The notes below the pieces were generated by a model. It saw nothing but the letters and a program-made list of their open reading frames with translations. It was not told the origin of the DNA and did not search any database. From an uncultured bacterium (GTDB lineage: Bacteria; Verrucomicrobiota; Kiritimatiellia; RFP12; UBA1067), in NCBI GenBank assembly GCA_902779075.1, contig CACZAK010000065.1, forward strand, positions 1 to 27,258: a stretch of DNA of 27,258 nucleotides, in the 5' to 3' direction. Each line of letters starts with the position of its first letter. The stretch's first letter is position 1. The position numbers and the translations under genes are program-made. Positions 5,982 through 25,441 of this stretch are shown here, piece after piece.

Positions 5982-8689
5982 TCAAGCACTCATTCTCTGA
6001 GCACGCAAAAAGATCACGTTGCGCAACTTCTTGGCATAGTTACTCGCCCCGCATGAATCCGTAGCGGCAATCAGGGCGCGTATCGTTTCCTCATGGGTTG
6101 GTGCATCAATCTTTCCCAGACGCTCAAAATCGGCTGCTGTTCCCTTGACGGCATCAACCCACCGGACATCCCCAAAATCAAAGAGCGCCTGAGCCGTCCT
6201 GATTCGCAACTCGGGCGAGCGGCAATAGAGCCCATCGGCGAGACACGCCATCGCCTCGGCCTTGAGAGACGATTCCTTCGCCGCTGACTGGCAATAGCGC
6301 AAAGCTGCGCCCCACACCTCGTTCCGCATCACGCGTCTTGCCAACGCCCGAACCGCCTGCATGACCTCCCGGTCGCATCCAAAGCATGCGGAAAGACAAT
6401 TCACAAGTGTTTCAAGGCAGTCGCATGGGATGGACGGTCCCTGTGCCAATTCCAGGTAACGTTGCCGCAACGCCTCCCGATCCGGATGATACCGCATCAC
6501 CTTCAAGGTCATTCGCACAAGCGGGCCATTTGCCGAGCCAAGTGCTGCCGTCACCAACTCCTCTTGATACTTCGCCTCCAAGTTGAGAAAGGCCAGTTGT
6601 TCCCATGCGTAGAGCCAATCCCCAGATAAATCCTTCCCGTCGGCCTTTTGCAGATAGTAGTCGGCGTATTCTGGTGCGAAGCAAGGCTTCAGACGGCGGA
6701 AGACGGGCGTATCGGGGCACCCAAACAGCATCAAGTGCCGTTTCGCACGGCTCATGGCCACGTACAGCAGCCGACCTTCGCCTTGTGAATTGTCGAGAGC
6801 ACAATTTTCTCGTCGCCGATAAGCAACTCGGCCTCTTTCAACCTCCTCAGCCGATCCCATTCTGCAGAAAGGAAATCTCCCAATACCTTTTTCCCGCCTT
6901 GGCAGACGGAATCCACATATCGCAGAAACTTTTCGATCCGTTCCCGCGAATGCCCTTCCGCCTCCTCAAACGACTCTGTATCCGCATCGTCGCGTACGCC
7001 ACCCAACTCCGGCCACAATTCACGCAGGGAGTATCGTCTGGGCTTTCCAAATGCCACATCGGAAAACAACTTGAAGAGAGCGCGAATTGATTCCGCGTGC
7101 GCGAGAGTCGCCGTCCCGTCCTGCACCGCATCCCGCAATGTTTCACGAAGGGATTGCAATGTCTTGCGGTGGCGCCATACCCACATCCGCCGACGGTTCC
7201 CCGGGTAGGGGAATGAGGGGATGCGATTTCCTTTCTCCCACAACCCCATCGGATCAAACCCGGCTGCAAACATCTCGCGCACCAGATATCGCGCCGCCTT
7301 GGCGGAAAAGACGCCAGACGCAAATCGATGCATCAACCGAGCCCAGTCCGTGCGCGACGCCTTCCCCACCAACACGGAAACATACGCGATAAAATCGCGC
7401 ATCGCCGCGAACGCAAAGAGATCGACACCAGAAACCTTCGTATAGCGATAGCCCAGTTCACGCACGCGCATCTCGAGCAGATCGGCATCAAGATTGCGGC
7501 GGACGAGAATCGCCACGTTCGACGCCGTTCCCGAATCCAACAGCCTCCGTACGCATTGCAACACCCCCTCCTCGGTTGTCGCCCCCGTGGCGAACACCTC
7601 GCCGTTCGCGCGGCGAGCATCGGACGGCTGCGGAAGAAACGCCCATTCGGATCGCAAGGCGTCAAGGGAATAGCGCATCAGGATTTCCAGCAGCAGAGGC
7701 GTCGCGCGGAAATTCGTCTTGAAGAAATGGCGTTCGCACGTGCGCACGTTATCGGCGAAGTTTTCCTCCGAGGCGCCAAGAAAGGAGAAGATCGCCTGCT
7801 CGGCATCGCCGAAATACACGCTCACCGCCTGTGACGCCGTCAGCCCCTGCACGATCTGCCACTGTAGAGGATTCAGATCCTGCACCTCGTCGATCAGCAC
7901 CCAGCTGTAGCGCCGCTCGTCTGCGAGCGGCGACTGTTCCAGGTAGAGGTAGGCTTCGTTGATGAGGTCGTCGAAATCCACGCTGTAAAACTTGCGCTTG
8001 AGGCTGACGTAGGCACCGGACAACGCACGAACCACGCCATTTCGATCAAGCTCAAACAGTTCGGGCGGCATCGCCCGAAGGTAATGCCGGGGGATGCCGA
8101 TCCGCCGCTGATGCGCAATCTGCACGGCGGTAAGGAGGGCGGCATACGGCGACCGATCCTTCTCCGCGTATGTTGCAAAATATTCCTCTACCAGCTCGTG
8201 CAAGTGATCAACGCGCATCGCGTGGATTTCCCCTGCCGCATCCGTCACGACGCCCCTGATTGAACGCAAGACGGTGACGCCATGCACGCCCTTGCCTGCC
8301 GGCGCGCCCGCCTTCAATTCTGCCCGCAGCACATCGACGACCTCTTTCACGAATGAAAGCTGTTCGCATTCATCCAGTATGTGCCGCGTTGGCGAAAGGC
8401 GTTTCACCGAGCAAAGGAAACGGAAGCAGAAATGATGGAGGTTTCCCACTTCCGGCATTGCCGCTTCTTGGCAGTGCGCCTCCACGCGCGCGCGCATTTC
8501 AAATGCGGCGCGGTTGGTGAACGTCGCGCAGAGCATGCGCGCGGGGTCGATGCCGGATTCAACCGCGCGCACGATGCGCTGCGAGAGCATCTCGGTTTTT
8601 CCAGATCCGGGCGGTGCCAGCACGAGGTGCCGCCCGGCGGAAATCGCCACCACTTTCTGCTGTTCATCGGTGAGGTTCATTTTTTGCAT
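5982..8689 (-). pseudogene. UvrD/PcrA-type (superfamily 1) DNA helicase, frameshifted
   Basis: An ATP-dependent 3'-5' helicase of the UvrD/Rep group. The N-terminal frame (8689 to 6752) has Walker A LAPPGSGKT (about 24-32), motif Ia CATFTNRAA, Walker B LIDEVQDLN (about 270), FGDAEQAIFSFLGA, the TNFRAT motif and motif V IVLSTIHKAK. After HKAK the reading shifts: motif VI LLYVAMSRAKR continues in another frame ending at 5982, followed by a helical C-terminal extension. The roughly 40 residues that normally separate these motifs (GLEFD...EERR) are gone, so a deletion of about 100 nt, not a simple slip, caused the break near 6775-6790. The ATG at 8689 is fixed by GGAGG 7 nt upstream. The gene is probably non-functional. 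Confidence 0.85.
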
Positions 8690-9009: not shown

Positions 9010-9819
9010 TTATTGAACGTCCACCGACATGGGACGCGGATGCGGAACGCGCGCGTAGGCGACGTCGGGAATGCCGAAAAGGAGAACCGCTCCGACTTCG
9101 TATCCGCGCGGCAGGTTGAGCGCACGACGGATCTTGCGCATCCACTTGAAGGCACGAACGGCGAAGCCGCTCCAGCACGTGCCGAGACCGTTCGCCTGTG
9201 CCAATAGGTCGAAGTAGCTGAGGGCGATCCATGGATCCGCCTCACGGCACGGCGCGCTTTTGGGCGTCGATGCCACGACCATGCACGGCGCGTTGCGAAA
9301 CACGACGTCGTCGCCCCGCATGACCTCGTCCATGTAACGGCGGATTTTCGGGAAGAAAAACTTCGGCAGGCGCGTGCGGATGATCGCCTGCAATGTCTTC
9401 AGCACCTCTCGACGGTACCAATCCATCTTCTCTCGGTCGCGTACGAGCGTGAAATGGAGCCGATGGTCATTGCATCCTGTCGGCATCCAGGCAAGGGCAT
9501 CGATCAGCCGCGTCCAGACGTCATCCGGAATCGGCGCATCCCGCCAGTGGCGAATGCTCCGACGCTGACGGACAAGCGCCGCCTCGGCACGTCCGTCTGG
9601 AAGCGGCTCGACGTCCAGTGTGTCGGCGAAACCGACGTCGTTGCACGTGACGGCGCCCCGCGCGCACACCGCGAGGCAATGCTGGCAATTCAGACAGAAT
9701 GGCTCGTTCTCCTTGCGGAACACGGGGAATCCGTCCTCACCCTTCGTCAGCACGTGGACGACGCAGTCTCGCACGCAGGCACCACAGGCCGTACATTTGG
9801 ATTTATCGATATGTATCAT
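9010..9819 (-). CDS. Ferredoxin-nitroreductase fusion protein
   Basis: A 269-residue protein with two [4Fe-4S] motifs at the N-terminus (C9-x2-C12-x2-C15-x3-C19 and C42-x2-C45-x2-C48-x3-C52), followed by a nitroreductase-family FMN domain starting near RQRRSIRHWRD (about 94). The domain includes MPTGCNDHRLHF and the C-terminal AQANGLGTCWSGF and LLFGIPD. Such fusions pass electrons from ferredoxin to FMN to reduce an organic substrate. The start is the ATG at 9819, with GGAGGAG 7 nt upstream. It overlaps the end of the epimerase gene by 17 nt and is the last gene of the coupled lipid-type operon, so a role as the pathway's terminal reductase is inferred. The substrate is unknown. Confidence 0.85.
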   Translation of the reverse strand: MIHIDKSKCTACGACVRDCVVHVLTKGEDGFPVFRKENEPFCLNCQHCLAVCARGAVTCNDVGFADTLDVEPLPDGRAEAALVRQRRSIRHWRDAPIPDDVWTRLIDALAWMPTGCNDHRLHFTLVRDREKMDWYRREVLKTLQAIIRTRLPKFFFPKIRRYMDEVMRGDDVVFRNAPCMVVASTPKSAPCREADPWIALSYFDLLAQANGLGTCWSGFAVRAFKWMRKIRRALNLPRGYEVGAVLLFGIPDVAYARVPHPRPMSVDVQ

Positions 9820-10768
9820 GGTGAAACTCCTCCAGTCCCGCTTTCGCAAGCCATGCGAGCATGCGCCGGTTGCTAAAATCGAGGTTGTGCGAAATCGTAT
9901 CGAGTGCGTACAGCGTCGGATCGAACAACGGCTTGCTTCTGGAGAGTGCCGTCGAAAGCGCGGCGATTGGACGTATCAGCGCCATCGGCAGCGTCATCTC
10001 GCGCAGGCGTTTCCCCGGCAGGAACTCCGCCGCGAGTTCGTGATAGTATTCGCTCACGGTGACGCGTCGCGAATCCAGCACGGTCACGCCCTCCCCACCC
10101 GCCTCCGGCAGGATCATCGCGGCGTGAAGAGTGCGGCAGACGTTCTCCACATGTGCGAGCGGCCAGCGGTTCCGTCCGCGCCACTTTCCAAAATGGAATA
10201 CGAGCGGCGAGTTCTTCAGGTACGCAACCGTTCGCGGCGTGATGGACGTATCGCCGCGTCCGTAGACGACGCACGGCCTCACGCAGCTAAAGCGCTCGCG
10301 CGGCAGATTTGCCGCGAGCCACTTCTCGGAAAGAATCTTGTACTTTGGATAAGGATTCTTCACGGTTTCGTCGAAGGCAAGCTCTTCCTCGCTCTCACCG
10401 TTGAAATCGTGAAGCCCGTAAACATCCGCAGTGGAAAGATAAACAAACCGCTTCACGCCATGTTCCATCGCAACGGACGCGAGACTCTTCACGGCCTCGT
10501 AGTTGGCCGCACGAAACCATTCATCGCGGCCAACGTCGCTCGCCCGTGCCGCGATATGGACGACGTAGTCGATCTTTTCCTCGAACAACCGCGATAAATC
10601 CGCCGCGTCCGCGAGATCGATCTTTATCGTCTTGATCCCAAGTCGCGTCAAGCGCTCCGCGATACGGTTGCGCACCGTGCCTATGACGCGGCACCCCGCA
10701 TTCACGAAGTATTCCGCCGCGTTCGAGCCGATATAGCCGCCGGCACCTGTAACAAGAATCGTTTCCAT
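9803..10768 (-). CDS. NAD(P)-dependent epimerase/reductase (extended SDR)
   Basis: A 321-residue extended short-chain dehydrogenase. It has the Rossmann motif TGAGGYIGS (7-15), an HIAARASDVG strand, Ser/Thr at LSTADVYG (112-113) and the catalytic Y140-x3-K144 in NPYPKYKILSE, followed by RPCVVYGRGD. Family members reduce or epimerise sugars, sterols or long-chain ketones. Reductases of this type serve as 3-ketosphinganine reductases in bacterial sphingolipid synthesis, which is the attractive role here given the serine-palmitoyltransferase-like gene in the same operon. The start at 10768 lies 3 nt after the stop of the ThiL-like gene. The specific reaction is inferred from context only. Confidence 0.8.
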   Translation of the reverse strand: METILVTGAGGYIGSNAAEYFVNAGCRVIGTVRNRIAERLTRLGIKTIKIDLADAADLSRLFEEKIDYVVHIAARASDVGRDEWFRAANYEAVKSLASVAMEHGVKRFVYLSTADVYGLHDFNGESEEELAFDETVKNPYPKYKILSEKWLAANLPRERFSCVRPCVVYGRGDTSITPRTVAYLKNSPLVFHFGKWRGRNRWPLAHVENVCRTLHAAMILPEAGGEGVTVLDSRRVTVSEYYHELAAEFLPGKRLREMTLPMALIRPIAALSTALSRSKPLFDPTLYALDTISHNLDFSNRRMLAWLAKAGLEEFHHDTYR

Positions 10769-10771
10769 AAT

Positions 10772-11698
10772 CTATCGCCAAAGCGAAGTCCAGTATGATG
10801 CCGTTTCTGCCAACCAGTTCTCGCGCGGGATTGAGCGATATTCCGGCGGCGGCGTGTACATGCGGCCAATCTTTCCGCCGTACATGATGCGGAAATCGCA
10901 TGCGCCCTGCGCGGCGAATCCGCCACGTCCGATTTTGACGGCATCGGCGACAGTCATCCCAGTGGGAACGGCGAATAGAAGCTCGTATTCGCCGACGCCG
11001 CCGACGAGCGCCCAGCCCTTCTCCACGCCGGGCGGGAGACTCCGCACGACTTCCGGCGAAACGGCGTGCTCCGCATCCAGTTCAAGCCATACGCCGGGAT
11101 TGACGCGGCGGAAGTTCTCCAGCGCATCGAAAAGGCCGCCGCTCGTATCGGTAGCGAAAAGCGCATTTCCAGAAACGGGGTCGCGAAGCGCAGGTTCTGG
11201 AACTGGACGCCCAAGAAACGCCGCGACATTTGCCGCACCGAGCGGCCCTGTCGCATACAAATCGAAATCTACGCGCTGCGACGCAACGCGGCGAATGGGC
11301 GTTTTACTGGACGCAAACACGGTGGCCGTCCAGCACCATTCCTTCGCCGTGCCGATGTCGCCGCCAATGACCTTTGCGCCGTAGTGCGACACAACCTGCT
11401 GGACGCCCTGCGCAACGCGCTCATAAAACCTTTCGTCGTGCGAGTCGTCTATGTTCCACGCCTGAATGAGGAAATCCGGTTCCGCCCCGCAGGCGAGAAT
11501 ATCCGCAATTGCGCCATACGCCATCACCCTTCCCATGGCTTCCGGCTCAAGACCTGAAAGGAAATCCTCGCGCTCGGAAAAGGAATCCGTCGTGACGAGC
11601 AGATTCGTGCCATCAAAAGGCACAACCTCCGCGTCCGCCCCGAAAGGCCGCGTACCGTGAACGCGGGAAAAGATTTCTATCAGCTTCTGTTCTTGCAT
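10772..11698 (-). CDS. ThiL/AIR-synthase-fold kinase-like protein
   Basis: A 308-residue member of the PurM/ThiL/HypE/SelD ATP-binding superfamily. Visible features are TTDSFSE (ThiL-type TTDxxxE Mg/ATP site, about 38-44), AYGAIADILACGAEP (family consensus NLSDLAAMGAxP) and VIGGDIGTAKEW (ThiL GGDTxxS). Canonical ThiL phosphorylates thiamine monophosphate, but no thiamine gene is nearby and several positions diverge, so a different phosphate-transfer substrate is likely. The start ATG at 11698 has AAGGAG 7 nt upstream; the ATG at 11704 is too close to it. It overlaps the lipid-kinase gene by 19 nt and is probably translationally coupled. A role within the lipid-type operon is inferred. Confidence 0.75.
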   Translation of the reverse strand: MQEQKLIEIFSRVHGTRPFGADAEVVPFDGTNLLVTTDSFSEREDFLSGLEPEAMGRVMAYGAIADILACGAEPDFLIQAWNIDDSHDERFYERVAQGVQQVVSHYGAKVIGGDIGTAKEWCWTATVFASSKTPIRRVASQRVDFDLYATGPLGAANVAAFLGRPVPEPALRDPVSGNALFATDTSGGLFDALENFRRVNPGVWLELDAEHAVSPEVVRSLPPGVEKGWALVGGVGEYELLFAVPTGMTVADAVKIGRGGFAAQGACDFRIMYGGKIGRMYTPPPEYRSIPRENWLAETASYWTSLWR

Positions 11699-12561
11699 CT
11701 GCATTCTCCTTCATTCTGGGGCACCACAAGGCGCAGACGGGTTGGGAACAAATCGACCGACACCGGCAGCGTCCCGTGAGGGTCGCCGTCGTACTCGACT
11801 GCAAGCGGAGAGGCGGACGAAATGATCGTCTTACCGCGAAGGACGCGGATTTCTCCGCAGGGCTTGCCGCGATACAGATTCCAGACAATCCGCAGACACC
11901 TGAAACGCGAAATATCTTTGACGAACCAAAGCGCATACTCGTCTTCTGCAAGCGGAGGAAGTGCCACCTTGAGCCCACCGGCGATCCGCGGCATCCGCGT
12001 GATGAGCGCATGGGCGACACCGCGGATTTCATCTTCATTGACCTTGATGTCGTATCTGCGTCCGCGCATTACTTCCCGCAGAACTGACCAAAGCGTTCCA
12101 AGGAAATCACCGAGCCTCGGGCGCAGCCTGTTGGCAGAAGCGGCAACAGCCGCGCCCATTCCTAAGTTCATTGAGCAGAAGAACGGTTCGCCGTTCGCGG
12201 TGAGTACGGGAATCTCTCGGACCACACCACCGCGCAAGACGGCGATTGCCTGTTCCGCATCCGTCGGGATGCCATGCGCGCGGCAGAAATCTGGACTCGT
12301 CCCCGTGTAGAGAACGCCGCACTTGAGAGATGCATCGCTATTCGCCAACACGCCTCGCGCGACGGCGTTGACCGTCCCGTCGCCGCCGCATGCGACCACC
12401 GCTTCATATCCCGACGCCTCGCGCGCAAGACGCGACGCCTCGTCGATATTCTCCAACACAACAAAATCGCCTTCGGGCAGAAGCGTGCGAAGGCGCGGCA
12501 AAATGCGGCCGGAGCGTCCACCGTGCGAAAGCGGATTGACCAAAACGAGGAATCGCTTCAT
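11680..12561 (-). CDS. Diacylglycerol/sphingosine-kinase-like lipid kinase
   Basis: A 293-residue DAGK-catalytic-domain protein. It begins KRFLVLVNPLSHGGRSG, has the nucleotide-binding ACGGDGTVNAVARG (58-70) and the later GTSPDFCRAHGIP (87-99, where most homologues read GTGNDFAR). A FCSMNLGMGAAV strand and a C-terminal VEYDGDP match the family's beta-sandwich. These soluble kinases phosphorylate diacylglycerol, sphingoid bases or ceramide at the membrane. Next to an SPT-like enzyme, a long-chain-base or related lipid is the best guess. The start codon overlaps the radical SAM stop (ATGA at 12561-12558). The GTS variant may alter substrate choice. Confidence 0.85.
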   Translation of the reverse strand: MKRFLVLVNPLSHGGRSGRILPRLRTLLPEGDFVVLENIDEASRLAREASGYEAVVACGGDGTVNAVARGVLANSDASLKCGVLYTGTSPDFCRAHGIPTDAEQAIAVLRGGVVREIPVLTANGEPFFCSMNLGMGAAVAASANRLRPRLGDFLGTLWSVLREVMRGRRYDIKVNEDEIRGVAHALITRMPRIAGGLKVALPPLAEDEYALWFVKDISRFRCLRIVWNLYRGKPCGEIRVLRGKTIISSASPLAVEYDGDPHGTLPVSVDLFPTRLRLVVPQNEGECRCKNRS

Positions 12562-13802
12562 CTGTAGATTCCCATTTTGTCGTAAACCTTCGTCGGCGTG
12601 CCGCCCTTCCATCCGGAAACGAGTTTCTCCGTCTCTGTCCAAGGAAGAGGAAGTTCATCGCCGGCATTCGCCGCGATTTCAGCGGCGCGTCGTTCGCACG
12701 TCCACTCCTCGCACGGCACAGCAAACGCCTTGCGCATACGCGCATACGCCGTTTCGAACGGCACTTCGGCGAGATTCCCGAACGAGATGTTGACGAACTC
12801 GCAGGGCTGGACGTCTCCGTTCGCGCCCACGTAGAAGCGGTCGATTCCGCCGCAGCAGCAACCGAGCATCTCCGCAGACTCCTCGTAGACCTGCGCCGTG
12901 AGAATCGTTGGAATGTGCGACTTGGCGGAATTGTAATGCCGCTGCGCCTCGCACGCGACGCGGACGGCTTCCGCATGCAGCGACTTGTCGAACGCCTTGC
13001 CCATCCACGCGCCGCACGCCTTCGGGTGGATAAGTTGAATGTAATAGCAGTTGTTTTCGGCGGCGAGCGACATAATGCGGTCGATTCCGCCGTCAACAAC
13101 TTCGCGGTCGGAAAGCACAGTATTGAATCCGACGAGCATTCCCGCCTCTCGGCAGTCGTGCAGGAAATCGAGCGCGCGGCGCCACGATCCCACAACGCCC
13201 GTGAATGCATCGTGCGCTTTCTCGTCAACGGAATGAATGGACGACATCACGCCCGTCACCTTCAATTCCGCGAGGCGGTGGATCTTCTCCGGCGTCGCGC
13301 CGTATCCCGTCGAGTTTACCCACACCTCCAGCCCCGCGATTTCCGCGAGAACCGCCTCCAGACGCTCAAAGCGGAGAAGCGGCTCGCCGCCTTCGACAGC
13401 CCACGCGACGATGCCGAAGTCGCGCATCTTGCGGACGTTCTCAATGAGCACGGGAAGTGGCAGTTCGTGTGGATCGTCCTTGCGCTGATAACAATGCGGG
13501 CACTTATACGCACATGCCTTTGCAATCGAGAGAACGACGCTGACGGGACGCGGCGGACGGCAGAGAACTTTATCATCAAGCGCAGTGAAGAACGCCTGCG
13601 ACGGATAACGCGGCAGATAGAAGTCGAGCTTGTATTCGCCACTTGCGAGTCTCTTCAGCTTGTGCTTGAAGAAGATGCGCGTCAGCTGCGACGCCTTCAT
13701 GAGCGCGGCGGGGTGACGCCAGTACCGCCACGCGCACGCAAGCGACATGAGCACATAGAAGAGAAACTTCCGAAAGCCCGTTATGTTCTCATTCCTTTTC
13801 AT
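12558..13802 (-). CDS. Radical SAM/SPASM-type enzyme
   Basis: A 414-residue radical S-adenosylmethionine enzyme. The cluster motif is C97-x3-C101-x2-C104 (ACAYKCPHCYQ), with the glycine-rich EGGEP (137-141) for SAM binding. The C-terminal cysteines CCCGG (315-319) and GDVQPCEF (C334), followed by SFGNL, look like a SPASM or truncated SPASM site for an auxiliary cluster. A hydrophobic, basic N-terminus (about 1-50, with FLFYVLMSLACAW) suggests membrane association. The reaction is unknown. The start ATG at 13802 overlaps the UbiA gene by 14 nt. Placement between a prenyltransferase and a lipid kinase suggests a lipid or isoprenoid substrate rather than a peptide. Confidence 0.85.
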   Translation of the reverse strand: MKRNENITGFRKFLFYVLMSLACAWRYWRHPAALMKASQLTRIFFKHKLKRLASGEYKLDFYLPRYPSQAFFTALDDKVLCRPPRPVSVVLSIAKACAYKCPHCYQRKDDPHELPLPVLIENVRKMRDFGIVAWAVEGGEPLLRFERLEAVLAEIAGLEVWVNSTGYGATPEKIHRLAELKVTGVMSSIHSVDEKAHDAFTGVVGSWRRALDFLHDCREAGMLVGFNTVLSDREVVDGGIDRIMSLAAENNCYYIQLIHPKACGAWMGKAFDKSLHAEAVRVACEAQRHYNSAKSHIPTILTAQVYEESAEMLGCCCGGIDRFYVGANGDVQPCEFVNISFGNLAEVPFETAYARMRKAFAVPCEEWTCERRAAEIAANAGDELPLPWTETEKLVSGWKGGTPTKVYDKMGIYR

Positions 13803-14712
13803 CGTTGTACCAGAGGAAGAGAAGCTGGATGGCAATAAGCGAGACGATGGCATACGGCCATGACGCTTTGAAGAAATGGAAATGTAGCAAGAGAACGCAG
13901 AGCTGGCAGTTCAAACACGTCGCGCGATGAAAGCGTGAACGCGAAACGGCAAGATGGAATGCTACCGCCAACACGGCAACAAGCACGGCAAACACAAGAA
14001 AACGCACGTTCAGAATGGCAGTAAACCCCGACAGTACAACAGCTAGAAAAACCATGGAATCAGAAAGCACCAACGCCACTGACGGACAGAGCGTCTGGAG
14101 CGTCCGCACACCCGCCGCGCGGTCACCTTTCACATCCTTGTAATAACTGTTGTGGCACATGAGAAAATGGACGGGCATGATCCAAGCCGCGACAAATCCG
14201 AACTCGTCCAGCGTCGGGCAGCGTTTCGCCATGCCGGCGATCGCGAACAGCGCACAGCACGAAATGGCGCAGGCGTAAACAAGGCAATTCAATACTGGCA
14301 CACGTTTCAGGAGCGAGTATGCGATATTCAGCGCCCCGCCAAGCGCGAGGAATGCAAGCGTCCAAGGCGACATCAAATACCCAACAACCGCAATGGCGGC
14401 GAGCCCTGCTACAGAAACCGCAAACGCCGGAAGCGGCTTCAGTTCGCCTGTCACCATCGGGCGGTGCGGTGCGTTGATCGCGTCCTCGTTCCTGTCACAC
14501 CAGTCGCTGAATATCTGGTTGAAGCCCCAGGCGAAGAATCCCATCGCAATCAGCGCCGTAGCGCGTAGCGTCCACCCTACGGGCCGCCATGCCGAATCCG
14601 CGCGAAATCCGAACCAATGCCAGTAATAGAGACCCGCCAGCACGGTTGTCGCGGTGACGAAGCCGTAGTAGAGCCGCATTGAGCGGAGGTAGTAGTAGAG
14701 AAACTTCAGCAT
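13789..14712 (-). CDS. UbiA-family membrane prenyltransferase
   Basis: A 307-residue integral membrane protein with about eight or nine hydrophobic segments. Both Asp-rich motifs of the UbiA family are clear: N65-x4-D70-x2-D73-x3-D77 (NQIFSDWCDRNED) followed by RPMVTGEL, and D193-x3-D197 in YYKDVKGDRAAGVRTL. These bind Mg-pyrophosphate of a polyprenyl donor; the enzyme transfers the prenyl chain to a quinone head, glycerol phosphate or a similar acceptor. The second motif resembles that of geranylgeranylglycerol-phosphate transferases and 4-hydroxybenzoate enzymes, so the acceptor is not decidable. The start ATG at 14712 overlaps the upstream stop by 7 nt. No ubiquinone or menaquinone genes are nearby. 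Confidence 0.9.
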   Translation of the reverse strand: MLKFLYYYLRSMRLYYGFVTATTVLAGLYYWHWFGFRADSAWRPVGWTLRATALIAMGFFAWGFNQIFSDWCDRNEDAINAPHRPMVTGELKPLPAFAVSVAGLAAIAVVGYLMSPWTLAFLALGGALNIAYSLLKRVPVLNCLVYACAISCCALFAIAGMAKRCPTLDEFGFVAAWIMPVHFLMCHNSYYKDVKGDRAAGVRTLQTLCPSVALVLSDSMVFLAVVLSGFTAILNVRFLVFAVLVAVLAVAFHLAVSRSRFHRATCLNCQLCVLLLHFHFFKASWPYAIVSLIAIQLLFLWYNDEKE

Positions 14713-15899
14713 TTGAGCGCCTCTGCTATTACGTCGGCAGCTTCTTCGACAAGCGCATTCGTGTGAGTCGCCATAAAACTCGTGCGGATGAGCGAATGTC
14801 CCTCCGGCACGCCTGGCGGAACGAACGGATTGACGAACACGCCGCCGTCGAACATCTTCTTCGCGGCGATGCATGTCTCCATCGTCCCGCCTGTCGGAAT
14901 CGGCAGAATCGGCGTGATGCCGTCCTTGGCAGAATCGACCAGCGGGATTCTGCGCTCCGCAAACGCCTTTCGTGCGAAATCGGCAACGCCGCGCAACCGC
15001 TCCGGCAGTTCTGGATGTGCCTTGAGATGACGTAGCGCCGCGAGCGCCGTCGCCGCGCTTGCCGGCGTGACGGCGGCGGAGAACACGAACGGGAACGAGG
15101 AATGGCGCAGATAGTCGATGACTTCGCGGCGACCCGCCACAAAACCGCCGAGTGAGGCAAGCGATTTCGAGAACGTGCCCATGACAAGATCCACATCCGA
15201 GTCGAGGCCGAAATGCGAGGCCGTGCCGCGTCCACCCTTCCCGATGACGCCGAGTCCGTGCGCATCATCGACCATCACGGCCGCGCCGTATTTTTTCGCG
15301 AGCCGACAGATCGACGGCAAATCGGCGAGGTCGCCTCCGACCGAGAACACGCCATCGACGACGACAAGGCACCCTGCGCCGTCCGGTACGGAGGCGAGAC
15401 GCCGCTCAAGGGATTCCATGTCATTGTGGCGATAGCGCAGCATCTTGCCGAAGCTCATCTGCGCGGCACAATAGATGCTCGCATGGTCTTCCGTATCGCA
15501 GACGACGTAATCGCCGCGTCCCACGAGCACGCTGATCACGCCGAGGTTCGTCTGGAAACCGGTTCCGAACGTGATGGCGGCTTCCTTGCCTATGAAGCCG
15601 GCAAGTTCTCGCTCGAGTTCAAGATGCAGATCGAGGTTGCCGTTGAGGAAGCGCGAGCCGGAGCAACCCGTTCCGTACTTCTCAATCGCCTTGATAGCCG
15701 CCTCCATGACCTCTGGGCACGACGTCAACCCGAGGTAGTTGTTGGAGCCGAGCATGATGCGGCGCTTGCTTTCCATGACGACAACAGCGTCCTGGCGCGA
15801 CTCGAGGCGATGGAAATACGGATAGATTCCCGCCTCGCGCGCCTCGTCTGCACGCCTATCAGCAAGCACTTTTTCAAAAAGCCGTTTCACCTCAGCCAT
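14706..15899 (-). CDS. Serine-palmitoyltransferase-like alpha-oxoamine synthase
   Basis: A 397-residue PLP enzyme condensing an amino acid with an acyl thioester. The PLP lysine is K245 (GTFSKSLASLGG), the cofactor-stacking residue is H139 (TEDHAS) and D211/H214 are in VDDAHGLGVIG. Segments such as GIYPYFHRLES, MLGSNNYLGLTSCPEV, GTGCSGSRFLNGNLDLH, RHNDMESLE and the C-terminal VFVNPFVPPGVP/LIRTSFMATHT resemble Bacteroidota and Sphingobacterium serine palmitoyltransferases more than BioF or KBL, by memory of those sequences. It would make 3-ketosphinganine or a related aminoketone. The ATG at 15899 overlaps the methyltransferase stop by 13 nt. No acyl-carrier protein or ceramide synthase is visible. 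Other AOS substrates remain possible. Confidence 0.85.
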   Translation of the reverse strand: MAEVKRLFEKVLADRRADEAREAGIYPYFHRLESRQDAVVVMESKRRIMLGSNNYLGLTSCPEVMEAAIKAIEKYGTGCSGSRFLNGNLDLHLELERELAGFIGKEAAITFGTGFQTNLGVISVLVGRGDYVVCDTEDHASIYCAAQMSFGKMLRYRHNDMESLERRLASVPDGAGCLVVVDGVFSVGGDLADLPSICRLAKKYGAAVMVDDAHGLGVIGKGGRGTASHFGLDSDVDLVMGTFSKSLASLGGFVAGRREVIDYLRHSSFPFVFSAAVTPASAATALAALRHLKAHPELPERLRGVADFARKAFAERRIPLVDSAKDGITPILPIPTGGTMETCIAAKKMFDGGVFVNPFVPPGVPEGHSLIRTSFMATHTNALVEEAADVIAEALKC

Positions 15900-16399
15900 A
15901 TCCCCTCATGCGCAAGGAGCGATACTTTATTTTCCAGTCCACCGCCGTAGCCGGTGAGGCTGCCGTCCGCGCCGATGACGCGGTGGCACGGAATGATGAT
16001 GCAGATCGGATTCCACCCGACCGCACCGCCGACGGCCTGTGCCGAAACCCTGCCCCCGCGCTTTTTCTCAATCGCCTTCGCGATATCGCCGTATGAGACT
16101 GTGGCACCGTACGGGATTCGCAGCATCTCGTCGATGACCGCCCGACGAAACGGCGTCAATCCATCAATGCGGTAGTTTGGCGTAAAGCCGGGATCATGTC
16201 CCGCGAAATACTCGTCAAGCCAACGACGCGTATTTCGGAACACCGGCGTCTCGCGCCTTTCGCACCCGCGCGTATCGCGCCAATCATCGCGCGAGCCCTC
16301 AAACCAAAGCCCAGTCAACGCTTCGTCATCCCCGCACATCACGAGATCGTCAAATCCCTCTGGCGTTTCGTATTTCCAGATGTAATCCATACCTGTCAT
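15887..16399 (-). CDS. ogt: Methylated-DNA-[protein]-cysteine S-methyltransferase
   Basis: A 170-residue suicide DNA-repair protein that removes O6-alkyl groups from guanine. The active site is PCHRV with Cys138, preceded by AVGGAVGWNPICIIIPC, and the DNA-binding region is RIPYGATVSYGDIAKAI (about 94-110). The C-terminal GYGGGLENKVSLLAHEG is standard. The ATG at 16399 is chosen for the AAAGG 4-5 nt upstream. The ATG at 16426, which overlaps the upstream stop, is an alternative that would add 9 residues. It is the first gene of the tightly overlapping lipid-type set, although its known role is DNA repair, so its place there may be incidental. Confidence 0.92.
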   Translation of the reverse strand: MTGMDYIWKYETPEGFDDLVMCGDDEALTGLWFEGSRDDWRDTRGCERRETPVFRNTRRWLDEYFAGHDPGFTPNYRIDGLTPFRRAVIDEMLRIPYGATVSYGDIAKAIEKKRGGRVSAQAVGGAVGWNPICIIIPCHRVIGADGSLTGYGGGLENKVSLLAHEGIWLR

Positions 16400-18075: not shown

Positions 18076-18858
18076 TTAAAGCGTCTCGATAAACGCAGGG
18101 AAGCGCGTCACGAGCTCCGCGCGTTCATGATGAAAGAGCATGTGCTCCACGTCGCGCCGCTTGAGTTCTAGGTCTACGGATCGAGCCTTTGCCGTCAGCG
18201 CCGCCTTGAGCGACTTGAGGTCGGTGACTTCCGGATGCACTGTGGACAGGAACGGATAATCCGGTTCCGTTCGCTGCAACAGAAAGATGGCATCGTAGAA
18301 ATCCCGTCCCTTGCCGCGTGTCAAGAGCGCCGACAGCTTCATTGCGCAGAGCGTCGCCTCGTTCGGCACGCACACCGGGAAGAAGAACCCGCAACGCCGA
18401 ACGTCAGCGAAGACCCTCTCGTATTCCCTCCCTTGGTCCTGTACCTCAATTTTCATCATAAACCGTTCTTCTTTGAAAGCGGAAAGGCCTAAATCATGCA
18501 GCAAGCCCGGAAACATTATGCTCCTCCGCATCGCCGTCAGGCGTGAGGACTCCTTCTCCTTCGCCACGACGTTCAGTCCGTTACGCACAAGATAAGCAAT
18601 GAGCGCGTCGGTAAAACGAATGAAATCATCAAGGGCAAGTCCCTTGCAGTCGAAATCAAGATCTTCCGAGAATCTGTCGATATCCTTCGTCAAACGCAGG
18701 TTCGTGCCGCCGATGAACGTCAACTTTGCAGCCCACGGGCTCCTGGCAATCCATTCAAGTGCAAGGCACTCGATGTACTCCTTCAAGATGTGCTTTGCGA
18801 ACTGTCCAGCGCGAAGTTCTTCGGGGAAGAAGCCTCTTATCGACTCAAGCGAAATCAT
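18076..18858 (-). CDS. abiEii: AbiEii/AbiGii-type nucleotidyltransferase toxin
   Basis: A 260-residue toxin of the type IV AbiE toxin-antitoxin/abortive-infection family. Motif I is FIGGTNLR (48-55) followed by RFSEDLDFD (62-70), the nucleotidyltransferase Asp pair. Motif II is KIEVQ (136-140). Motifs III/IV are MKLSALLTRGKGRDFYD (173-189). Family members transfer nucleotides (to tRNA acceptor ends in related MenT toxins) and halt growth on phage infection. All active-site residues look intact. Its ATG overlaps the antitoxin stop (ATGA at 18858-18855), the usual order with the antitoxin first. Confidence 0.9.
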   Translation of the reverse strand: MISLESIRGFFPEELRAGQFAKHILKEYIECLALEWIARSPWAAKLTFIGGTNLRLTKDIDRFSEDLDFDCKGLALDDFIRFTDALIAYLVRNGLNVVAKEKESSRLTAMRRSIMFPGLLHDLGLSAFKEERFMMKIEVQDQGREYERVFADVRRCGFFFPVCVPNEATLCAMKLSALLTRGKGRDFYDAIFLLQRTEPDYPFLSTVHPEVTDLKSLKAALTAKARSVDLELKRRDVEHMLFHHERAELVTRFPAFIETL

Positions 18859-19472
18859 ACCACATACACCTCCTTGACAAGCCTGATCCTTCGCGCAAGT
18901 GCCTGTGAACCGAAGCGAGCCACAACGCCGTCAAGCGCGCTGTCGCGCGAAATCTCCTCCAACACGTCGGTATCAAGGCGCAGCGCCTCAATCTCCTCCG
19001 GCGTGTCGTACTGCGAATTGAGATACAGGAAGTCGCAAAGCGCCTTCGACGGCGTCGCGACATAGACCGGCAGTCCGCCGCCCACGGACTCCACGTCATA
19101 GCCGAACATCAGCTGCGGTTTGACGCTGCGGTACGAAAACTCCCCGAAGTCGTTCTTGAACGAAGTCGTCTTGAGCGAGGTGACGGACGTGAACTGCACG
19201 ACAGATTCTGGAATCAACCCAGCCCTTGCCATAACATACTCACACGAAAGATAGCTTGGCGAATACATCCTTCCCGCAAAGTAGTCTCCTATTCCTGGCG
19301 TACCTGCGACATCCGCAAAGGCGTACCACGAACGTCTAAGCCGCTTGATGTGCCCCTTTTCCAGCCAGGTTGAATAATTTCCTCTGTCGAAACGAGGAAA
19401 CGCCGCCACTACCTGCTCGTTGGAGAAGCAGGCAAAGTCATGAAATCGCTCTCTGAACGTTATGTAGTTCAT
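18855..19472 (-). CDS. abiEi: AbiEi-type antitoxin and autorepressor
   Basis: A 205-residue AbiEi-family protein. The N-terminal winged-helix region (about 1-60, NEQVVAAFPRFDRGNYSTWLEKGHIKRLRRSWYAF) is followed by the conserved GDYFAGRMYSPSYLSCEYVMARAGLIPE and YVATPSKALCDFLYLNSQ. AbiEi binds inverted repeats in its own promoter and represses the operon; neutralisation of the toxin is indirect. The ATG at 19472 has GGA 7-9 nt upstream and sits about 14 nt from the predicted transcription start. A perfect inverted repeat flanks the -10 box, fitting autoregulation. Confidence 0.9.
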   Translation of the reverse strand: MNYITFRERFHDFACFSNEQVVAAFPRFDRGNYSTWLEKGHIKRLRRSWYAFADVAGTPGIGDYFAGRMYSPSYLSCEYVMARAGLIPESVVQFTSVTSLKTTSFKNDFGEFSYRSVKPQLMFGYDVESVGGGLPVYVATPSKALCDFLYLNSQYDTPEEIEALRLDTDVLEEISRDSALDGVVARFGSQALARRIRLVKEVYVV

Positions 19473-21793: not shown

Positions 21794-22882
21794 TCATTCG
21801 CCTACCTTGCGATACTTTATCGACAATTTTTCGCTTAGTCTCTCAGCGGACGAGAATGGCCCTGGCGAAAGGTAGATTCCCTTTTCATCCTCTCCGAGAT
21901 AATAATCGCCTGACCAGCCTGGGAACGTTTTCTCATCAGAATTCTCTGCCAAACGAATACGCCAGACCCACTCCGCAGGCGGCTCGTTACGGTAAGAATC
22001 GTCCTTACCGCCAGTAACATTTCCATTTCGCTGTATGCTCCAAGAAGAATACCTAGGGCCAAGCTTGCTCTTGTCTTTGCCGAACCTATACCCGAATGGG
22101 ACGTATGCTACAGCAGAACCTGACTCATCAAGAGTCAAGCAATACCGCCCGGGGTCATTGGCGAATGAGCAATTGAAACCATCCATGAGCCATCTGCGGG
22201 ACTCCTTGTCCGCTGACCACTTACCGGGAATCAGTTTCTGCAACTCCTCGCGCGAAATGTCTTTCTTTGCTTTCCATCCTCCGGGATTCATCTTCGAAAG
22301 CGTATACTGAAACACGATCTTCCCGTCAGACTCGGCTTTCGCATTGGCCACATCGAAACCTCTGCTTTGATACCATGACGCATGATTGTCACAGGAAGCC
22401 CGGAAATGGCCCTTCACATCGTGCAAACGGTTGATCTTGAACTCGCCGACGGCGTCTGTCGTCCCAGAGAAAGCCTTCCCGACCAGATCAAAGTGACCAT
22501 GTATCTTGGCTCCCTGCACAGGTCGTCCGTCCTCATCGACAATCCGAAGGTAGCAGCCATGATACGGCTGACACAGATCGTAAGGCAGACAGACCAGATC
22601 CACCAGCGGCGAGACGACGCACTCGTCAACCACAAAACCCACCGCTGCAATGGGAATCCCCACAATGCCGATGGGTATCGTCCATTCTCCGCCGCGCTTC
22701 TGCACACCCCAAACCCACACCATCAGAGGTGCTGTGTAGATGTACAAACCGGGGCCTGGGCACATCCGCGTCGTCTGAAACAGTTCGCCGGTTCGCGGCG
22801 CAAACATCCCGGTCTTGCAACCGGAGCACATTGTTGCCAGCGCGAGTGATGAGACGAGAGTGATTCTTGCAAAGGATTTCAT
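21794..22882 (-). CDS. Lipoprotein, YceK-like N-terminus, paralogue A
   Basis: A 362-residue predicted lipoprotein. The signal MKSFARITLVSSLALA leads to MCSGCKTG; the acylated Cys is probably that of SGC, by alignment with LTGC in the paralogue. A region like the YceK lipoprotein family follows (GEWTIPIGIVGIPIAAVGFVVDE, PLVDLVCLPYDLCQP), then a carboxypeptidase-regulatory-like beta module (DEDGRPVQGAKI ... GTTDAVGEFKI, about 118-150) and a C-terminal domain shared with paralogue B (PGGWKAKKDISREE, LIPGKWSADKES, YYLGEDEKGIYLSPGPF). Function is unknown. The ATG at 22882 overlaps the upstream stop by ATGA, with AAAGGAG 6 nt before it. Confidence 0.75.
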   Translation of the reverse strand: MKSFARITLVSSLALATMCSGCKTGMFAPRTGELFQTTRMCPGPGLYIYTAPLMVWVWGVQKRGGEWTIPIGIVGIPIAAVGFVVDECVVSPLVDLVCLPYDLCQPYHGCYLRIVDEDGRPVQGAKIHGHFDLVGKAFSGTTDAVGEFKINRLHDVKGHFRASCDNHASWYQSRGFDVANAKAESDGKIVFQYTLSKMNPGGWKAKKDISREELQKLIPGKWSADKESRRWLMDGFNCSFANDPGRYCLTLDESGSAVAYVPFGYRFGKDKSKLGPRYSSWSIQRNGNVTGGKDDSYRNEPPAEWVWRIRLAENSDEKTFPGWSGDYYLGEDEKGIYLSPGPFSSAERLSEKLSIKYRKVGE

Positions 22883-24334: not shown

Positions 24335-25441
24335 TTACTGCTTCACCTTGCGGTACTTCAACGACAACTTCTCGCTTAAGTTATCCCACTCGGAAAATGG
24401 CCCCGGCGAAAGGTACGGCCCCTTTTCATCCTCACCAAGATAATAACTATCGGAACAAATCGTATTCTTGGGGCCGTCTGAAAGATGGACACGCCAAAGC
24501 CATCCTGATGGAAGACGCTCGTGATTCCTTCGCGCTTTGGCCTCGTCTACATCGTCCTTGCCTTCAAGCGTCCACACGGAATAGATCCCGTGATCCCAAT
24601 CATCATGACGAGCTCCAAAGTAAAACACATATTCGTGTGGAACATGAGAGTCAACCTTGCCGGATGCTTCAAGCGTGAAGCAGTGCCTGTCAAGATCATT
24701 CGCATACCGGCAGTTAAACCCGTGCTGAAGCCATACACGCGACTCATGATCCGCCGCCCATTTGCCAGGGAGTAGTTTCAGCACCTCCTCTCGCGCAATG
24801 TCTTTCCTGGCTTTCCATCCGCCTGGATTCGCCTTGGGCAACACAAACTGAATCACGATTCGTCCATCAGAACACGGTTTTACCTCCGCTGTCTTGAACT
24901 TCTTGTGGTTCCACCAACTTGCGTAGTCCGGACAAGATACCCAGCAATGGCCTTCCATAGGGAACGTTCCATCCAATGAGATCTCGCCTGCCGCATCCGT
25001 TGTTTCCTTGAACTTTTCTTCGCCCATCCAGTAGTAATCGGCTTTCTCGAGCCGTCCCCAAACCTTCACCCCAGAAATAGGCTTACCGAATTCATCGACA
25101 ACACGAATGTAGAAGCTGCGCTTCGGCTGGCAGAGGTCGTATGGCAGGCAGACCAGATCCACCAGCGGTGAGACGACGCACTCGTCAACCACAAAACCCG
25201 CCGCCGCAATGGGAAGACCCACGATCCCGATGGGGATCGTCCATTCGCCGCCACTCTTCTGCACGCCCCAAACTCCCACCATAAGAGGCGCTGTATAGAC
25301 GAACGAACCGGGGCCTGGACACATCCGCGTCGTCTGGAACAACTGTCCGGTACGTGGCGCAAACATGCCGGTCTTGCAACCTGTGAGCGTCATCACGAGC
25401 GTGAGAGATGAGACTAGGATTGCCTTTGTCAGTTTCTGCAT
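24335..25441 (-). CDS. Lipoprotein, YceK-like N-terminus, paralogue B
   Basis: A 368-residue paralogue of the 22882-21794 protein with the same domain order. Signal MQKLTKAILVSSLTLVMTLTGC has a good lipobox; then come KTGMFAPRTGQLFQTTRMCPGPG, the YceK-like segment, a regulatory-like beta module (DEFGKPISGVKVWG ... ETTDAAGEISLDG) and the shared C-terminal domain (PGGWKARKDIAREE ... YYLGEDEKGPYLSPGPF). The two are almost identical for the first 100 mature residues and at the C-terminus but differ in the middle. The ATG at 25441 has AAAGGAG 10 nt upstream. Function is unknown. Confidence 0.75.
   Translation of the reverse strand: MQKLTKAILVSSLTLVMTLTGCKTGMFAPRTGQLFQTTRMCPGPGSFVYTAPLMVGVWGVQKSGGEWTIPIGIVGLPIAAAGFVVDECVVSPLVDLVCLPYDLCQPKRSFYIRVVDEFGKPISGVKVWGRLEKADYYWMGEEKFKETTDAAGEISLDGTFPMEGHCWVSCPDYASWWNHKKFKTAEVKPCSDGRIVIQFVLPKANPGGWKARKDIAREEVLKLLPGKWAADHESRVWLQHGFNCRYANDLDRHCFTLEASGKVDSHVPHEYVFYFGARHDDWDHGIYSVWTLEGKDDVDEAKARRNHERLPSGWLWRVHLSDGPKNTICSDSYYLGEDEKGPYLSPGPFSEWDNLSEKLSLKYRKVKQ

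Follow-up and report, generated by a model that had tools for sequence, protein, structure and literature searches.

A conserved gene cluster that pairs a serine palmitoyltransferase-like synthase with a UbiA prenyltransferase and a radical SAM enzyme: a candidate undescribed lipid pathway

Background

Sphingolipid producers are traced in genomes by way of serine palmitoyltransferase (SPT), and one survey, which finds Spt-like proteins in bins of 38 phyla, treats these bins as potential producers (PMC11334938). What might such an enzyme be doing in an operon that also encodes a prenyltransferase, a radical SAM (rSAM) enzyme and a ThiL-like kinase? This question is raised by positions 9010..16399, minus strand, of contig CACZAK010000065.1 from an uncultured bacterium; the whole stretch analysed, 27,258 nt, is called the window below. 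An initial annotation had read the feature as an eight-gene operon and suggested a novel amino- or prenyl-lipid as its product. We see seven of the genes as the form that a conserved, patchy and probably horizontally exchanged cluster takes in this clade. It would make a phosphorylated sphingoid-type lipid with a second chain added by the prenyltransferase, a reading to which we give somewhat less than an even chance.

Organization of the operon

All eight minus-strand frames between 9010 and 16399 are open, with ATG starts and with stops and overlaps as first described. The Ogt-type methyltransferase gene (15887..16399) overlaps by 13 nt the gene for the SPT-like alpha-oxoamine synthase (AOS; 14706..15899, 397 aa), which heads the conserved set in the window's clade. 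The AOS gene shares 7 nt with the gene for a UbiA-superfamily membrane prenyltransferase (13789..14712, 307 aa from the ATG at 14712), and this in turn 14 nt with that for an rSAM enzyme with a SPASM-like C-terminal part (12558..13802, 414 aa from the ATG at 13802). A DAGK/YegS-type lipid kinase (11680..12561, 293 aa) follows with an overlap of 4 nt, then a ThiL-like kinase (10772..11698, 308 aa) with one of 19 nt. After a gap of 3 nt comes an extended short-chain dehydrogenase/reductase (SDR; 9803..10768, 321 aa), the proposed 3-keto reductase. Its gene overlaps by 17 nt that of a ferredoxin-nitroreductase (9010..9819, 269 aa), in which a two-[4Fe-4S] ferredoxin domain is fused to a nitroreductase-family FMN domain. 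The family names given in the initial annotation agree with Pfam and NCBIfam.

The overlap geometry suggests that the genes are co-transcribed and translationally coupled. Scans of the window for sigma-70 promoters (one promoter-like site against 2.8 expected) and for terminators (eight terminator-like sites against 10.1) did no better than shuffled sequences. That the arrangement exceeds chance follows from finding the same genes co-located in genomes of the same genus, in another genus and across phyla.

Recurrence across phyla

We scanned genome contigs with a 40-row alignment of the rSAM enzyme. A relative is encoded in 153 stretches, the best 80 of which were kept as loci; the counts below therefore tell how often other genes accompany the rSAM gene and say nothing of their frequency away from it. 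Genes in these loci are open frames and not annotations, and frameshifted ones are missed. The term wide denotes the 36 loci in which the sequence extends 9 kb or more to each side of the rSAM gene.

By per-gene profiles, DAGK is found in 73 of the 80 loci, UbiA in 70, ThiL in 68, SDR in 65 and AOS in 62. The wide loci show UbiA in 35, DAGK in 34, SDR in 33, AOS in 32 and ThiL in 30 cases. All six core genes (these five and rSAM) are together in 45/80 loci and in 27/36 wide ones (the wide loci lacking the full six are L041, L042, L064, L073, L086, L094, L096, L099 and L104). Of 66 loci with both kinase genes, DAGK and ThiL, 60 have them side by side. The 45 six-gene loci come from 11 named phyla, namely Lentisphaerota, Verrucomicrobiota, Kiritimatiellota, Elusimicrobiota, Bacillota, Rifleibacteriota, Auribacterota, Pseudomonadota, Ignavibacteriota, Fibrobacterota and Omnitrophota, with four records carrying no phylum label; most record titles denote metagenome bins, so a phylum label may be a binning error. 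It is well supported that the six genes recur as one conserved cluster.

The Ogt gene does not belong to it. It is present in only 3/80 loci, and it lies apart from the SPT gene by 0.3 kb in L034 and by 1.5 kb in L035, as opposed to the 13-nt overlap in the window. We therefore regard it as a passenger, and the set of eight genes first proposed shrinks to seven.

Conservation within the phylum

A search of 59 relatives with the rSAM protein returned five near-identical orthologues (93–95% identity; genomes G001, G011, G013, G014 and G027) and more distant proteins in G028 (45%) and G022 (28%). The 4.2-kb locus of G022 shows no such cluster, and weaker matches were taken as other radical SAM proteins. 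The same-genus genomes G001, G014, G011 and G013 repeat the gene order as far as their contigs reach, at 87–99% identity, G011 departing from this range with a UbiA at 69% and an incomplete SDR at 84%; in G013, where the cluster lies on two contigs, the nitroreductase was not found beside the SDR. G028, from another genus, has UbiA, rSAM, DAGK, ThiL, an OYE-family enzyme, AOS and SDR at 33–43% identity. In G027, also from another genus, UbiA, rSAM and DAGK are followed by an ATPase-like insertion, then by ThiL and by a long frame without relation to the cluster; the 16 kb examined there yielded neither SDR nor nitroreductase. The co-occurrence expected from the initial annotation is thus seen in related genomes as well as across the 11 named phyla, which supports its view of one operon-like pathway.

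At E 1e-70, the rSAM orthologue is patchy in the phylum (19/387 genomes, 14/197 genera), and the G027 copy is 92% identical over the rSAM gene despite the different genus. Both observations suggest horizontal exchange of the cluster. The window's rSAM protein had no match in a plasmid collection at E 1e-40.

A second site in G001, at the end of contig C120 (locus L130), carries fragments of the SPT end, a UbiA frame, SDR and ThiL (101-310). It is either a deleted second copy or a misassembly.

Identity of the synthase

Among curated models, the window's synthase scores best with NF047600 for SPTs of the CFB group (496.9 bits), ahead of bioF (349) and PRK06939, glycine C-acetyltransferase (336). 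Since 496.9 bits lies below the equivalog cut-off of 640, we call the enzyme SPT-like and not a member of that family. Of the solved structures, the SPTs 8guh and 3a2b are nearest (406 bits), followed by KBL (233) and BioF (at most 190). A 56-row AOS tree, built without ALAS, CqsA and cysteate AOS, groups the enzyme with the solved SPTs 3A2B and 2JG2 at 100/97, and E. coli BioF and KBL fall elsewhere, as do two further AOS lineages found in this slot of the cluster. The relatives' AOS sequences in this tree come from tblastn, and 15 cluster rows were excluded as near-duplicates, one partial sequence and one over-long frame. The tree rules out an assignment as BioF or KBL and bears out the SPT-like label of the initial annotation. 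We propose that the enzyme condenses serine with a long-chain acyl thioester.

This type of synthase is not common to all loci. When ten cluster AOS were scanned, the SPT model came out on top for L051, which is of the window type, and for L060; the other eight gave a BioF- or KBL-type model as best hit, with the SPT model 5–51 bits below. L112 scores about equally with solved SPT (209 bits) and KBL (205 bits). The two kinds nevertheless sit in homologous surroundings. In a quick rSAM tree (44 rows, last 430 residues of each frame), L050, with the other AOS, joins L055, with the SPT type, at an SH-aLRT of 96, the AOS gene lying downstream of ThiL in L050 and upstream of UbiA in L055. AOS trees constrained to unite SPT-type and Lentisphaeria-type rows (p-AU 6e-66) or to hold all cluster AOS in one clade (p-AU 8e-61) were rejected, although both groups were picked after the tree had been seen, a choice for which such p-values are not strictly meant. 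Because the rSAM tree mixes both kinds of AOS while AOS trees that unite them are rejected, we conclude that an SPT-clade enzyme has supplanted the native AOS, the rest of the cluster being homologous. Since a canonical-type SPT could replace it there, the native AOS is probably SPT-like in its product and also makes a 3-keto sphingoid base.

As to the acyl donor, Bacteroidota SPTs use acyl-CoA and those of Rhodobacteria prefer a dedicated acyl carrier protein (ACP), according to PMC11324152. The window's clade, with a Bacteroidota-type SPT and no ACP seen, fits the acyl-CoA use. This fit is weakened by loci that have the other AOS and likewise no ACP seen (e.g. L070-L079).

A stand-alone SPT-SDR pair with overlapping frames was seen in the same-genus genome G005 (contig C80, 2461-4607, locus L128). 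Its SDR is 49% identical to that of the window, and no close rSAM orthologue was found in this genome.

The accompanying enzymes

The prenyltransferase belongs to the UbiA superfamily by its Asp-rich motifs, its Y...K motif and its UbiA fold. The window protein is among the 7/28 sequences that have the middle Asp of motif 1. Motif residues are conserved in the cluster UbiAs and are largely like those of digeranylgeranylglyceryl phosphate (DGGGP) synthases in PMC9385802. Compared with solved UbiAs, the profile is nearest to DGGGP synthase (72 bits), followed by chlorophyll synthase (51) and others (28). The tree does not join the cluster UbiAs with DGGGP synthases, nor does it firmly exclude the grouping (p-AU 0.051). 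An assignment as DGGGP synthase proper is not supported, the window protein reaching 44 bits with NF009521 (cut-off 296) and the Z scores being tied.

The window's rSAM enzyme matches PF04055 at 62.1 bits. Its CxxxCxxC motif and three more cysteines (332, 351 and 386 of the longest frame) are invariant in 40/40 aligned sequences. It scores 21.4 bits with the Pfam SPASM family (cut-off 21.5), and its predicted model (pLDDT 90.1) has the SPASM enzymes SkfB and SuiB as best Foldseek rows. With invariant cysteines and a fold nearest to SPASM enzymes, it qualifies as a radical SAM/SPASM protein.

Both kinases are well conserved. The first is a clear DAGK/YegS member (PF00781, 72.3 bits, cut-off 23.6) with GGDGT and GTSPD invariant in 25/25; its profile is nearest to 4wer and DgkB, then to YegS and then to sphingosine kinase 1. 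For the second, TIGR01379 is the best-scoring family, yet the 90.4 bits stay below the cut-off of 184.15, so that the enzyme is ThiL-like only and not a ThiL member. Its profile finds solved ThiLs at 118 bits, ahead of HypE (42) and SelD (37), and six Asp residues are invariant in 26/26; these presumably correspond to the metal/ATP site of ThiL, an enzyme that converts a phosphate into a diphosphate. The kinase may have a thiamine role: only 2/11 cluster carriers have a ThiL above the cut-off elsewhere in the genome.

The SDR (PF01370, 113.7 bits) shows TGxxGxxG and YxxxK invariant in 24/24 aligned cluster SDRs and had no match among solved structures at 1e-10. In the ferredoxin-nitroreductase (PF13187, 29.3 bits; PF00881, 69.1 bits), eight cluster-type cysteines are invariant in 10/10.

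Variants of the cluster

UbiA and rSAM are fused into one open frame in 3/80 loci, and both Pfam domains occur in 16/120 database proteins among the matches listed. The flavoenzyme slot varies. In 33/80 loci it is filled by an FMN enzyme of the OYE family that carries a Cys cluster at its C terminus and in 12/80 by the ferredoxin-nitroreductase, never by both; neither is seen in 12/36 wide loci. Both enzymes have conserved cluster-type cysteines. The ferredoxin-nitroreductase, first described simply as a pathway member, holds that position in the window's clade, as a clade-specific stand-in for the OYE-type flavoenzyme.

Additional genes (listed for 79/80 loci, without L080) include a ketosynthase-like one in 16/80 loci (one Pfam-confirmed), an ACP-like one in 12/80 (two Pfam-confirmed) and an MMPL-type exporter in seven (one confirmed). 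The absence of an ACP noted earlier is thus true of the window but not of all related loci. Six loci add a gene with a sub-threshold PKS-dehydratase match (21.5 bits, cut-off 27, in the one scanned). An ATPase-like gene, which we take to be of the DUF4143 type, stands between DAGK and ThiL in five loci (L039, L041-L044), and another lies in L029 (3168-4379). These insertions mark an insertion hot spot within the cluster.

Comparison with known lipid pathways

The closest system for comparison is the bacterial ceramide/phosphosphingolipid pathway (Spt, CerR, CerS, AcpR, AasR and the ceramide kinase CC_1160), as far as it is laid out in the accessible parts of PMC11324152 and PMC11334938. Common to both are an SPT-clade synthase, the SDR beside it and a lipid kinase; clusters from other phyla also have an ACP. 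The cluster differs by adding UbiA, rSAM, the ThiL-like kinase and an Fe-S flavoenzyme, a set not described in those parts. CerS and AasR were not recognised among the conserved genes of the 80 loci, a comparison restricted to these loci and made without a CerS or CerR model. For the operon itself this agrees with the initial annotation, which saw no ceramide synthase.

The archaeal diether lipid pathway offers a second parallel. Its DGGGP synthase shares largely matching motifs with the cluster UbiA (PMC9385802) and gives the best profile score, and ferredoxin-driven saturation of the chains is known there. On the other hand, the cluster enzyme would have a sphingoid base as its acceptor, the two are not joined in the UbiA tree, and no gene for synthesis of geranylgeranylglyceryl phosphate (GGGP) was recognised in the cluster, where no GGGP synthase model was run. 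The sulfonolipid (capnine) pathway likewise starts a sphingoid-like lipid with an AOS, cysteate fatty acyltransferase; the window AOS scores 204 bits with that enzyme (PDB 28eh), compared to 406 with SPT.

A proposed pathway and its alternatives

From these assignments we infer the product, its substrates and the order of the steps. The SPT-like synthase would join an acyl thioester and serine to a 3-keto sphingoid base, the extended SDR would reduce the ketone, and the DAGK-type kinase would phosphorylate the primary alcohol. The resulting sphingoid 1-phosphate would be a lipid phosphate with a single chain, its secondary hydroxyl and its amine left free, and would chemically resemble GGGP, the acceptor of DGGGP synthase. 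The DGGGP-synthase-like UbiA might then prenylate the free hydroxyl (or the amine), giving a two-chain lipid without ceramide synthase, with prenylation standing in for the N-acylation of ceramide. The flavin/Fe-S enzyme, ferredoxin-nitroreductase here and OYE elsewhere, could reduce C=C bonds with ferredoxin-type electrons. The ThiL-like kinase could convert the lipid phosphate to a diphosphate and so activate the lipid, and the rSAM enzyme, sometimes fused to UbiA, could modify a membrane-bound intermediate. We favour a sphingoid core because the window AOS groups with SPTs, because an SPT has replaced the native AOS and because an SPT-SDR pair stands alone in G005. On the strength of the UbiA motifs and of the SPT swap, a prenylated sphingoid lipid is now likelier than could be shown in the initial annotation.

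The two kinases also allow a different logic, which we think rather unlikely. Phytol salvage to chlorophyll and tocopherol uses two successive kinases and a UbiA prenyltransferase, and plant chlorophyll synthase can be fed in this way. By analogy, DAGK and the ThiL-like kinase could act serially, from alcohol to phosphate to diphosphate, and the AOS/SDR lipid would be the UbiA donor, transferred to an acceptor prepared by the rSAM enzyme. The frequent adjacency of the two kinase genes, the established ThiL reaction and chlorophyll synthase as second nearest UbiA would all be explained. The kinases are of different families from those of phytol salvage, however, and to our knowledge AOS, SDR and radical SAM enzymes play no part in it. 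The known UbiA donors are allylic diphosphates or, in one branch, PRPP, and a saturated sphingoid 1-diphosphate is not allylic. Furthermore, no conserved gene besides rSAM could make the acceptor. It is also possible, though still improbable, that the product is not sphingoid at all and that the AOS makes another alpha-amino ketone, which would be cyclised or aromatised to a pyrrole-, quinone- or pigment-like compound, prenylated by UbiA and passed to the rSAM and flavin enzymes. Aromatic rings are prenylated by many UbiAs (PMC9385802). The preference for BioF- or KBL-type models outside the window's clade, the tie in L112 and the loci with ketosynthase, ACP, MMPL exporter or the sub-threshold dehydratase match point in the same direction. 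Against it stand the replacement of the native AOS with an enzyme of the SPT clade and the DAGK-type lipid kinase in nearly all wide loci.

Least probable by far is an ordinary ceramide-phosphate operon with unrelated passengers. AOS, SDR and lipid kinase do recall the central steps of the Caulobacter route, in which an ACP takes part as well (PMC11324152). But UbiA and ThiL, with 35 and 30 occurrences in the 36 wide loci, cannot be called passengers, and we reject this explanation because of their conservation. The UbiA-rSAM fusions, the lack of a conserved gene recognisable as ceramide synthase in the loci (again with no CerS model run) and the absence of the terms 'UbiA' and 'radical SAM' from the main text of the Caulobacter paper PMC11324152 also speak against it.

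Novelty and significance

All enzyme families in the cluster are known, and its SPT-SDR-kinase core is that of bacterial sphingolipids. The combination with UbiA, rSAM, a ThiL-like kinase and an Fe-S flavoenzyme is not linked to sphingolipids in the open literature searched. A search of 5.39 million open-access papers brought up no account of the gene set in the titles and abstract beginnings listed, and for UbiA together with serine palmitoyltransferase these hold nothing on a bacterial pathway; prenylated sphingolipids gave nothing in the open-access literature either. The earlier description of the pathway as undescribed stands to this extent.

A conserved cluster that joins an SPT-clade enzyme to a prenyltransferase and an rSAM enzyme, and in which no ceramide synthase was recognised, would imply that part of the SPT-bearing bacteria produce something else. 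A more far-reaching possibility, and a more doubtful one, is a lipid class that bridges the divide between sphingolipids and archaeal lipids: a phosphorylated sphingoid base in which an isoprenoid joined by UbiA would replace the N-acyl chain of ceramide, reduced by ferredoxin-type electrons and remodelled by an rSAM enzyme sometimes fused to UbiA. Such lipids might occur in at least 11 named phyla, including gut and rumen bacteria (according to record titles) and Desulfosporosinus. Among possible culturable hosts, Desulfosporosinus orientis, D. hippei, D. fructosivorans, Petroclostridium sp. X23 and Acetivibrio alkalicellulosi are listed with the rSAM protein and may have the full cluster. 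Carriers in rumen and gut would make the cluster relevant to host-microbe lipid exchange. With the gene set, a natural enzyme fusion, a natural SPT replacement and possible culturable hosts at hand, the identity of the lipid could be addressed by mass spectrometry.

Genes flanking the cluster

Several other genes of the window caught our attention. A UvrD-type helicase (5982-8689) is split over two overlapping frames, and a similar split in L026 and L027 indicates either two genes or a conserved frameshift. An AbiEii-type nucleotidyltransferase gene (18076-19472) has an overlapping partner gene, and the pair is found, diverged (24–28%), at the same place in L027. Two likely paralogous genes for proteins of about 360 aa (21794-22882 and 24335-25441) have no Pfam family above cut-off, and one stretch of L027 matches both. 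Close to the left end of the window lies a gene for a DDE-type transposase (PF01609, 615-2504).

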